Assembly (NCBI RefSeq): GCF_900104665.1 | Contig: NZ_LT629967.1 | Location: 38,455-102,454 of the forward strand | Length of the DNA stretch: 64,000 bases | DNA from: Traorella massiliensis | GTDB lineage: Bacteria > Bacillota_I > Bacilli_A > Erysipelotrichales > Erysipelotrichaceae | Reading direction: 5' to 3' | Part shown: in pieces, positions 24,484 to 27,773 of the stretch | Layout of the letters: each line of letters opens with the position of its first letter | How positions within the stretch are numbered: position 1 is the stretch's first letter | Made by a program: the position numbers and the translations under genes | The notes under the pieces: model-generated | The model's database searches: none | The model's input: only the letters and a program-made list of their open reading frames with translations | Told to the model about the DNA's origin: nothing

Positions 24484-26070
24484 TTAAAAAGCATTCTGGC
24501 ACTCTATTAATTTACCTTTTTCAAGTATCATTTTTCTTTTTGTTAACCTTTTGATCAAATAGCGATCATGAGAAACGATCAGTAATGTTCCTTTAAATTC
24601 CTCAAGAATCGATTCAACGATCTCAATACTTGAAAAATCCAAATGATTTGTAGGTTCATCAAAAATAATAAAATTAATATGATTGACGAATATCATGGCT
24701 AGTTTTAAACGTACTCTTTCACCTCCACTGAGATGTTCCAGCCTTTTGGCCATATCATCACCATCAAAACCAAACTTACGCAAATAGAGTCTAGCTTTTT
24801 CTTCACTCATAGCCGCTTCATAACAAAAGCTGTTCAAAAGGCGCTGTTTTTCATCATTAAATATGATTATCTGAGGCAAATACCCAATATCAACATGATT
24901 GCCTTTTTTCACACTTCCCTCATCCGCCTGTAGCTGATTCATCAAAATGCGGATCAAAGTGCTTTTACCGCTTCCGTTATCCCCACACAAAGCTATTCTA
25001 TCCTGCCAATATATCGTAAGATCAATATGATCCAAAAGATTTTTATCACCATACCTCTTACATAGCTCCTTGATTGACAGAACTTCTTTACTGCTTCTTT
25101 CACATACCGGTAAAGCAATAGTCATTTTTCGATTCGCATACTCTGGATTTTTAAGTCTTTCGATTTGCGATAATTTTTTCTCTAGTTGTTTTGCTTTCCT
25201 ATAGAAGCTTTCGTTATCACCTTCATACGCCCATTGACGATAACGTCGAATCGTGTTTTTCAATTTCAGTATCTGTTTCTGTTGCTCTTCAAAATCATGT
25301 TTTAAGCGTTCGAAACGCAACGCTTTTTCTTTTTTATAGTCATCATAATTACCTGGATACATCACAATTTCACCATTCTCAATTTCATAGATTTTAGAAA
25401 CGGTATGATTCAAGAAAAAACGGTCATGGGAAACAATGATCATTGTTTTTCGTAAAGAACTCATATACTTTTCAAGCCATTGTATTCCTGCACGATCCAA
25501 ATGATTCGTCGGCTCATCCAGCAATAGCACATCTAAATCTTGAATGAGCAAGTAAGCCAAATTAACACGCATCTTTTCTCCACCACTCAGAGTATCATAA
25601 TCATGATCAATAAGATAAGCGATCCTTAACCCCTGTGTCATCTGATCTACTTTACAAAGCAAATCATAACCGCCCGCCATTTCAAACCTTTCACATAAAT
25701 TGCCATATCTTTTCAATAAGTCATCTAAGCACTCTAAATGATCAGGATCGGAAATTTCTATTTCCATACAATGCATCTGATTCTGCATTTTCAAAATGTC
25801 ATTACGACTGCTCATTAAATAATCATGAACGCTTCCTTTAAACTCTCTAAAATTCTGTTCCAAATAACCAATTTTTGTATTTTTCGTTGTAATGATCTGT
25901 CCTTGCTGACATTTTTCTTTTCCAGCCAGTATCTTAAGAAATGTACTTTTTCCACATCCATTTTCTCCTACAATTCCTATATGCTCGCCATCATTTATTT
26001 TTAAAGTAATATCATCCAGTATAATTTCGTCACTATATCTTTTAGTTATATTATTTATATGTATCGTCAT
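24484..26070 (-). CDS. ABC-F ATPase, candidate antibiotic-resistance ribosomal protector
   Basis: A 528-residue soluble protein with two ABC domains: Walker A GENGCGKS (35-42) and GDNGSGKS, two LSGGE signatures and DEPTNHLD in both. There are no membrane segments. The roughly 80-residue linker between the domains is charged (KKEKALRFERLKHDFEEQQKQ), as in ABC-F factors that reach into the ribosome. A 40-codon leader peptide and a terminator hairpin precede it, an arrangement known from vga, lsa and msr resistance genes and inducible by ribosome-targeting drugs. Drug spectrum cannot be told from sequence; a housekeeping ABC-F is the alternative. Confidence 0.85.
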   Translation of the reverse strand: MTIHINNITKRYSDEIILDDITLKINDGEHIGIVGENGCGKSTFLKILAGKEKCQQGQIITTKNTKIGYLEQNFREFKGSVHDYLMSSRNDILKMQNQMHCMEIEISDPDHLECLDDLLKRYGNLCERFEMAGGYDLLCKVDQMTQGLRIAYLIDHDYDTLSGGEKMRVNLAYLLIQDLDVLLLDEPTNHLDRAGIQWLEKYMSSLRKTMIIVSHDRFFLNHTVSKIYEIENGEIVMYPGNYDDYKKEKALRFERLKHDFEEQQKQILKLKNTIRRYRQWAYEGDNESFYRKAKQLEKKLSQIERLKNPEYANRKMTIALPVCERSSKEVLSIKELCKRYGDKNLLDHIDLTIYWQDRIALCGDNGSGKSTLIRILMNQLQADEGSVKKGNHVDIGYLPQIIIFNDEKQRLLNSFCYEAAMSEEKARLYLRKFGFDGDDMAKRLEHLSGGERVRLKLAMIFVNHINFIIFDEPTNHLDFSSIEIVESILEEFKGTLLIVSHDRYLIKRLTKRKMILEKGKLIECQNAF

Positions 26071-26091
26071 TTTCTTTCTCCTCTCTCATGT

Positions 26092-26125
26092 AAACGGGAA
26101 AAAGAAAAGTCCAGCAGAGCTGGAC
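26092..26125 (-). terminator. Attenuator terminator before the ABC-F gene
   Basis: On the minus strand GTCCAGC-TCT-GCTGGAC (26125-26109) is a perfect 7-bp stem with a 3-base loop, followed by TTTTCTTTTTCCCG. The TTTTTCCCGT part can instead pair with ACGGGAAAA near the end of the leader peptide frame, giving a possible anti-terminator. Confidence 0.8.
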
Positions 26126-26161
26126 AACTATCATCAATACTGACAAAAGTACAATTCTGCT

Positions 26162-26284
26162 TTATCTGTTTTCCCGTATTTTGGACGCACTCGTCCCATT
26201 AGAAAGGAAAACAGTGAAAACAATGGTACGACAAAAAGCATCTTGCATTTTGATACGATCATAAATCTTTGTCATACCTAACAT
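26162..26284 (-). CDS. 40-residue leader peptide of the ABC-F gene
   Basis: ATG 26284 follows AAAGGAGG and encodes a 40-residue peptide, MLGMTKIYDRIKMQDAFC and onward to KIRENR, ending at TAA 26162-26164. The last codons overlap the sequence ACGGGAAAA that can pair with the T-run side of the terminator at 26092-26125. The strong start and the position suggest that stalling on this peptide allows transcription into the ABC-F gene. Confidence 0.7.
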   Translation of the reverse strand: MLGMTKIYDRIKMQDAFCRTIVFTVFLSNGTSASKIRENR

Positions 26285-26301
26285 TGTCCTTCGCCTCCTT
26301 T

Positions 26302-26324
26302 ATATGTTATTAGCAATAACATAT
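26302..26324. promoter_or_regulatory. Perfect palindrome upstream of the leader peptide
   Basis: ATATGTTATT-AGC-AATAACATAT is a perfect 10-3-10 palindrome directly before the AAAGGAGG of the leader peptide and just after the predicted transcription start. It may be an operator or an RNA hairpin that masks the ribosome binding site. Confidence 0.6.
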
Positions 26325-26339
26325 GCTTTATCCTTACTA

Positions 26340-26368
26340 TTTATACCACACCTTTGATCGATATGCAA
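26340..26368 (-). promoter_or_regulatory. Promoter of the ABC-F leader transcript
   Basis: On the minus strand TTGCAT (26368-26363) and TATAAA (26345-26340) are 17 bases apart. The predicted start is near 26333, just before the palindrome at 26302-26324. Confidence 0.6.
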
Positions 26369-26573: not shown

Positions 26574-27773
26574 ATGATCATCCGACCACATTATTTAAAC
26601 TTATTAAAAATCTACCGTGATGTTTCGCTTGTTAAGATATTGGCTGGGATTCGAAGATGTGGCAAATCTACGATCTTGGAAATGCTAAGAGAAGATTTGT
26701 TGAAAAGCGGGATTCCTGAAGACCATATTATCAGTATGCGTTATACATCAGAGGATTTTGATGACGGAATGACTGACAAAGAAATGTATAATGGAATTAA
26801 AGAATACATAACCAGTGAGGGACGTTACTATCTGCTATTAGATGAAGTTCAAGAGGTTTATGGATGGGAAAAAGCAGTTAATAGCTTGCTTGAAAATGCC
26901 AATACAGATATTTATGTAACTGGCTCCAATTCGAAACTGATGTCAAGCGAAATTTCTACCTACTTGTCAGGTCGATATGTCTCTATTCCGGTGTATACTC
27001 TGTCATTTTCCGAATATTTGGAGTTCAAAAAAAATGATTCTCAATCTTTAAAGGAATTATTAAACGAATACCTTCGATTTGGAGGATTCCCAATAGTAGC
27101 GCTAGGCAATTTTGATGAACGCTCCGCTTATCAGATTGTAGAAGGAATCTATAACTCTGTTATTACAAATGATATTACAAAACGACATAATATTATGAAT
27201 TTTGATTTATTTAATCGTGTTGTAAAGTTTATCATCGAAAATGTCGGCAAGACCTTTTCAGCCAATGCTATTGCAAAGTTTCTGAAAAGTGAGGGACGCT
27301 CCCTATCAGTCGAAGCAGTTTACAACTATCTCAACTGGTTAGAAAAAGCATTTATCATCTATCGCTGTCAGCGATATGATTTGCAGGGAAAATCCGTATT
27401 AAAAACACAAGAAAAATTTTATCTAGCAGACACTTCTCTGAAATATTGTATTATGGGGTTTAATCCAAAATCAATTGCCGCTATGCTGGAAAACATTGTC
27501 TACTTTGAACTACGACGAAGAGGATATAACGTTTATATTGGAAAAAATGAAACGAAAGAGATTGATTTTGTAGCAGTACAACGCGATGAGCGTATTTATG
27601 TACAGGTATGCCGTAATCTACCAGAAGAATCAGATCGAGAAATTACCAATCTCCTTGAAATCAAAGACCACTACCCAAAATATATAGTAACGTTGGATGA
27701 ATTAGCTACGGGAAATATCAACGGTGTAAAAATCGTGCATTTAGCAGATTTCCTTCTGAGTAACAGTTATTGA
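26574..27773 (+). CDS. DUF4143/AAA_14 ATP-binding protein
   Basis: A 399-residue protein with Walker A AGIRRCGKST (25-34), Walker B YLLLDEVQEV near residue 88, and the C-terminal DUF4143 region with LENIVYFELRRRGYNVYIG and EIDFVAVQ, a nuclease-like fold signature. These ATPases are common and mostly uncharacterised; some lie near toxin-antitoxin or mobile genes. It starts at ATG 26574, behind AAGGAGG. It stands alone, diverging from the ABC-F unit. A second, distantly related member is at 41821-43092. Confidence 0.8.
   Translation: MIIRPHYLNLLKIYRDVSLVKILAGIRRCGKSTILEMLREDLLKSGIPEDHIISMRYTSEDFDDGMTDKEMYNGIKEYITSEGRYYLLLDEVQEVYGWEKAVNSLLENANTDIYVTGSNSKLMSSEISTYLSGRYVSIPVYTLSFSEYLEFKKNDSQSLKELLNEYLRFGGFPIVALGNFDERSAYQIVEGIYNSVITNDITKRHNIMNFDLFNRVVKFIIENVGKTFSANAIAKFLKSEGRSLSVEAVYNYLNWLEKAFIIYRCQRYDLQGKSVLKTQEKFYLADTSLKYCIMGFNPKSIAAMLENIVYFELRRRGYNVYIGKNETKEIDFVAVQRDERIYVQVCRNLPEESDREITNLLEIKDHYPKYIVTLDELATGNINGVKIVHLADFLLSNSY

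Follow-up and report, generated by a model that had tools for sequence, protein, structure and literature searches.

In translational attenuators of the ermC type, four RNA segments pair as 1:2 and 3:4 in the off state, and the 2:3 helix of the on state forms after stalling on the leader. The leader of vmlR in B. subtilis was studied experimentally and, in the available text of PMC9226507, consists of a uORF, a 5' stem-loop that acts as an anti-antiterminator, a terminator and a Shine-Dalgarno (SD) sequestering stem that is freed by an alternative helix. For cplR, uORF stalling, a terminator and SD sequestration were likewise demonstrated by experiment, resulting in both transcriptional and translational attenuation (PMC10201436), and according to a review that credits it with experimental support too, the leader of VgaL lmo0919/Rli53 combines uORF stalling with a terminator and an ORF of three amino acids (PMC8079631). 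The Listeria RNA rliI, which is located upstream of lmo2760, has mostly been discussed as a trans-acting sRNA, but Term-seq data are reported to identify it as a conditional terminator (PMC8079631).

The window analyzed here is a stretch of 64,000 nucleotides of Traorella massiliensis. An ABC-F ATPase of 528 aa with two ABC domains and a linker is encoded on its minus strand (24484..26070; recognized from its ORF, profile matches and a predicted model), and the whole leader upstream of the gene covers positions 26368-26071 of the same strand. An earlier note had described an ABC-F gene under a leader peptide and attenuator at this locus. All parts that it listed exist, and the pairing it pointed out exceeds chance. 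From sequence comparison, the element is judged to be genuine and conserved, a ribosome-mediated attenuator that represents a new leader family: the comparison revealed a leader ORF that is translated from an SD of its own and, for the arm acting on the SD, mutually exclusive helices. This upholds the reading of an attenuator with a translated leader in front of the ABC-F gene, and it is probable that it combines a terminator with an ermC-like translational switch and that stalling of ribosomes on the leader is what triggers it.

The leader has a uORF, a terminator and an SD-hiding stem released by an alternative helix in common with vmlR, but the vmlR uORF is a tripeptide (MIN), whereas the present leaders have 38-43 codons and a conserved core peptide. 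For the frozen 1b/apex block introduced below, the available text of PMC9226507 describes nothing comparable. uORF stalling and a terminator are features of cplR and lmo0919/Rli53 that the proposed switch shares, as is, for cplR, SD sequestration; the uORF of cplR (C. difficile) has three codons (MRI), however, and its terminator stem itself holds the SD, unlike here. None of the eight Erysipelotrichales leaders that were translated has a three-codon uORF. In comparison with ermC, the 3:5 helix of the present leader resembles the 2:3 helix, but segments 2 and 3 of that scheme are here separated by an intrinsic terminator, and the regulated gene encodes an ABC-F protein or an MFS transporter.

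The promoter that had been claimed is present. By direct reading it consists of TTGCAT (26368-26363) and TATAAA (26345-26340), separated by 17 nt and with a TG preceding the -10 (26340..26368, minus strand), and hexamers and spacing are identical in the sister species (L016). A promoter scan had no match here because it requires a T at position 6. Directly before the leader SD, a 5' transcript hairpin was identified by reading and folding (26302..26324, minus strand). This is the 23-base palindrome of the earlier note; it is not perfect as such, since two perfect 10-base arms enclose a 3-base centre. At the same site the sister species has an altered hairpin that is still paired (AATGTTATG-GCTG-CATAACATT), and by eye no counterpart was seen in the other orthologs. 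The strong SD AAAGGAGG is followed by the predicted 40-codon leader ORF (26162..26284, minus strand), which encodes MLGMTKIYDRIKMQDAFCRTIVFTVFLSNGTSASKIRENR. The terminator was equally confirmed: a hairpin (26125-26109) followed by a U tract (together 26099..26125, minus strand) was the best candidate of the terminator scan. Every ortholog has a terminator in this position, with covariation between its arms (1/5040 permutations). On the opposite strand a divergent gene for an AAA_14/DUF4143 ATPase (26574-27773) is absent at the sister-species locus, where the same downstream gene (DUF885) is found and the upstream neighbourhood differs.

In all eight aligned leaders the start codon keeps a constant spacing to a strong SD and shares its frame with the DAFCRT core, with 14-18 codons between start and core. 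The codons for DAFCR are frozen at all positions (entropy 0.09 each), as would be expected if they double as RNA. They lie in segment 1b (GATGCTTTTTGTCGTAC, 26226..26242, minus strand), which is near-invariant in the alignment, codes for DAFCR(T) and has the apex as alternative partner (116/5000 shuffles). Beyond this block, the codons of TIxFT have mean entropies of 0.44, 0.26 and 1.18 at positions 1, 2 and 3; that they vary mainly at third positions indicates that the peptide DAFCRT[IV]xFT is translated and selected. Comparative sequence evidence supports translation of the leader ORF and shows translation-type selection on its product. The apex hairpin (GGGACGAGTGCGTCC, 26183..26197, minus strand) is, by contrast, read in three different frames across the orthologs and is therefore conserved as RNA. 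Together with the frozen third positions of 1b, this could be taken to mean that the block is conserved as a riboswitch or a protein-binding RNA in which the ORF is incidental. Such an RNA would hardly keep the SD, start and core in one frame in 8/8 leaders despite the variable length of the N-terminus, nor would it explain the third-position variability in TIxFT. Moreover, when 1751 ORFs were ranked with an HMM built from 11 leader peptides, the leaders of L063 and L062 (MFS loci, see below) and that of L035 came first, and a search against Rfam gave no family at threshold and no riboswitch match, which makes an RNA-only element improbable. A pairing of 1b with the apex was proposed by RNAalifold on the core; as it lacked covariation, it was set aside as a helix of the model and retained only as a possible alternative.

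The folded leader is more stable than all 200 shuffled sequences (z -6.3). Pairing was analyzed with a partner-swap test, in which a segment is combined with the partner of another species, so that in co-evolving helices the true partners bind better; shared ancestry makes swapped partners bind better and works against significance. Segment A (26283..26295), which covers the leader SD and start region, pairs in the fold with A' in the spacer (26142..26155), which has part of the terminator as its other possible partner. Segment 1a (leader codons 3-7, 26266..26278) pairs with 1b, and segment 2 (CTGTTTTCCT, 26205..26214) with segment 3 (ACGGGAAAA, 26169..26177) at the leader stop codon. Segment 3 can alternatively bind segment 5 (TTTTCCCGT, 26094..26102), and segment 5 and the U tract hide the SD region of the ABC-F gene (AGAGGAG.., 26071..26083; all on the minus strand). 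For these five pairs, which were chosen after inspecting the folds, the permutations of seven leaders that scored at least as well as the true partners numbered 2/5040 for A:A', 1/5040 for 2:3 and for 3:5, and 18/5040 for 1a:1b and for 5:SD. With twelve leaders, two of them from MFS loci, no permutation out of 20000 was as good for A:A', 2:3 or 3:5 and one was for 5:SD, whereas control segment combinations were equalled by 14231 and 17650 of the 20,000 permutations. The covariation supports A:A', 2:3, 3:5 and 5:main SD as mutually exclusive helices. Terminator and promoter patterns are common by themselves, and one might read the locus as a constitutive ABC-F gene next to a terminator that merely happens to end an upstream transcript there, with pairings that arose by chance; the permutation tests, the covariation and the order-wide conservation contradict this, and leave it hardly credible.

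The pairing of ACGGGAAAA with TTTTCCCGT had been proposed as an anti-terminator. It is exact and covaries, yet a role as classical anti-terminator was rejected, as segment 5 is transcribed only past the termination point and the terminator lies inside the helix. Since formation of 3:5 excludes the pairing by which the ABC-F SD is hidden, it is regarded as an SD-release helix instead. The spacer that separates the leader stop from the terminator, and that is otherwise paired with the leader SD, may be the better anti-terminator candidate, with a weaker signal of competition with the terminator (62/5040 permutations). To simulate stalling, the footprint of a ribosome was masked during folding. 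With the P-site two codons past CR in the window, 3:5 increased from 0.00 to 0.83 and 5:SD decreased from 0.82 to 0.12, with a small gain in accessibility of the ABC-F SD (0.25 to 0.32). The 3:5 switch was reproduced in the window, L016, L018, L019 and L020, at varying stall sites, and was not reproduced in L017 or L029. In equilibrium folding with the masked footprint the terminator of the window stayed intact (P 0.81-1.00), and the transcriptional arm is therefore weakly supported.

Based on these pairings, the following mechanism is proposed. The transcript would open with the translated leader ORF of ∼40 codons. In the off state, ribosomes would complete the leader and halt on segment 3. 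The apex hairpin and 2:3 would form, and the spacer A' would be bound to the leader SD, such that most transcripts end at the terminator and read-through mRNA has its ABC-F SD hidden by segment 5. In the on state, a ribosome or queue of ribosomes stalled on the leader would block pairing of segments A, 1 and/or 2, the spacer would be able to compete with the terminator, and 3:5 would form and open the ABC-F SD. The likeliest stall signal would be an antibiotic that acts on the large subunit of the ribosome; clearing or protecting ribosomes would then be the task of the ABC-F protein. The parts, their conservation, the competition between helices and the translation-type selection on the peptide are established by comparison of the orthologous sequences; the stall site, the inducer and a function in resistance are inferred.

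The block GATGCTTTTTGTCGTAC ... GGGACGAGTGCGTC is kept upstream of orthologs with only 42-54% protein identity. A gapped pattern was found in 6/315 genomes of the order and in all six stood before the same ABC-F gene, and the reversed control had no match in any listed genome. A covariance model (R1) was built from eight leaders and searched in 314 genomes of the order; it matched in 15: in 12 the gene behind the match encodes an ABC-F protein of a single clade, in three an MFS transporter, and there were no matches elsewhere. The broader model R2 recovered the same 15 genomes plus chance matches, among which the weak matches L082-L085 were counted. A class-wide search of 395 genomes with R1 gave no true match outside the order, one weak match (L065) being judged chance. 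Contig OR847261 (31 bits) and Enterococcus gilvus (22 bits, E 0.0074) have more distant leaders, likewise in front of ABC-F genes. Searches of plasmids, phages and viral contigs with the leader DNA found no leader, and tblastn of the leader peptide against plasmids gave no match. In two leader loci deviations were observed: in L061 the apex hairpin is shortened (GGGATAAGTGTC) while the 2:3 and 3:5 pairings are kept, and in L059 the downstream ABC-F gene appears split over two frames (305 + 215 aa), possibly a broken copy or an assembly error.

The transporters of the three MFS loci (L062-L064), from three genomes of a neighbouring family, have 388-396 aa, with gene starts near locus position 1430 or 1660. 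Their nearest models are H+ antiporters and drug efflux proteins, and they score below every NCBIfam cut-off. In the leaders of these loci, the apex is GGGACGAGTGCGCCC and the helix between leader SD and spacer is weak. The same leader thus serves an ABC-F protein and an MFS transporter, and the ABC-F gene itself is patchy, being present in 8/117 relatives at E<=1e-100 and in two of five Traorella genomes including the present one; for these reasons, drug sensing is the best reading of the switch. The suggested link to drugs is drawn from this exchange of ABC-F and MFS genes and from analogy to the known ABC-F leaders.

The protein has the features of the ABC-F class, namely Pfam ABC_tran in two stretches and ABC_tran_Xtn, the conserved motifs and no transmembrane part; in the predicted structure the linker helices span residues 242-284 and 287-302. 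Among named relatives, the closest (81% identity) comes from an uncultured Traorella MAG with the same downstream DUF885 gene. A fold search of the PDB matched EttA, PoxtA and VmlR2 and ranked EttA and PoxtA first, but phmmer against the PDB favoured VmlR2 (302.5 bits) over YbiT and EttA (about 257), so the protein alone gives no reading of resistance. In all NCBIfam Vga, Msr, Lsa, OptrA, Sal and CplR models it scores far under the cut-off. NF000355, the sole family passed, was discarded as proof of resistance because 8/14 control genomes and further ABC-Fs of the same genome pass as well. In the phylogenetic tree, the ABC-Fs carrying an R1/R2-type leader group together in a single clade (100/99), and the named resistance references of the tree, OptrA, PoxtA, MsrE/MsrI, VgaA and LsaE, all fall outside it. 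The inter-motif linker of 145 residues is of medium length, without the long resistance-determining loop, compared with 168-172 residues in MsrE/MsrI/VgaA/LsaE; OptrA (138) and PoxtA (147) likewise have no long linker loop. The position outside the named resistance families tested, a linker only 9 residues longer than that of EttA, and regulation of EttA-type factors via leader pausing, as published in the available text of PMC11282234, would all fit a translation factor with self-feedback, whose attenuator senses general translation trouble or amino-acid shortage (e.g., through the Cys/Arg core codons) and which has no role in resistance. Feedback on such a factor would make little sense for the leader in front of an MFS transporter in three genomes, and the patchy occurrence of the gene also speaks against it; this explanation is considered unlikely.

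Beyond the single locus, the leader may tentatively be regarded as a new modular class of antibiotic-sensing leaders, in which an arrest peptide of ∼40 aa (core D-A-F-C-R-T-[IV]-x-F-T) within a multi-state RNA serves unrelated resistance-type genes (ABC-F, MFS efflux) across the Erysipelotrichales, with relatives in Enterococcus and possibly rliI of Listeria, and which senses a drug context unmatched by known leaders. If the switch works by the proposed mechanism, the leader would flag resistance-type genes of gut Erysipelotrichales that are uncharacterised and possibly intrinsic, with no need for protein homology, and every gene behind it would become a candidate. The leader also provides a new candidate arrest peptide for trials with ribosome-targeting drugs.

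The earlier note had called the determinant possibly undescribed. This holds for the leader, which belongs to no Rfam family at threshold and for whose peptides a literature search found no publication, but the Listeria relative rliI is a known conditional terminator. In L070, rliI (positions 1188-1426, 282.6 bits to RF01487) is located directly upstream of an lmo2760-type ABC-F gene and beside guaB, and it holds an ORF of 36 codons that has an SD-like site, GAGGT. It shares with the present locus a downstream ABC-F gene with ribosomal-protection-like annotation, a leader ORF and a terminator. The window leader matches RF01487 with 18.9 bits (E 0.0081), under the gathering threshold of 45 bits; in the reverse search R2 placed its match inside rliI (E 0.48), and L037, a relative from the same class, also matches weakly (20.2 bits, E 0.44). 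The core peptide and apex of rliI differ, however, and the ABC-Fs fall in separate groups of the tree. The peptide HMM did not rank the leader ORF of rliI, so homology rests on the weak RNA matches and the shared gene neighbour, and the sequences point to a probable distant kinship, not membership. rliI can then be viewed, testably, as an ABC-F leader and not only as a trans-acting sRNA.

Two further types of leader ORF were observed. L021 and L022 carry a second, distinct conserved leader peptide (FCRRIAGTQLRTESVK / VCRRVEGTVLRTESVNQ) and a terminator-like element before another group of ABC-F genes; a literature search gave no paper on these peptides. The ABC-F genes on staphylococcal plasmids L067, L068 and L069 are preceded by a leader ORF of 40-48 codons (MFLIAYCCRYLQIIRNKFSILIPKL), and the encoded proteins are ∼37-39% identical to the window protein and, where annotated, named only ribosomal protection-like.
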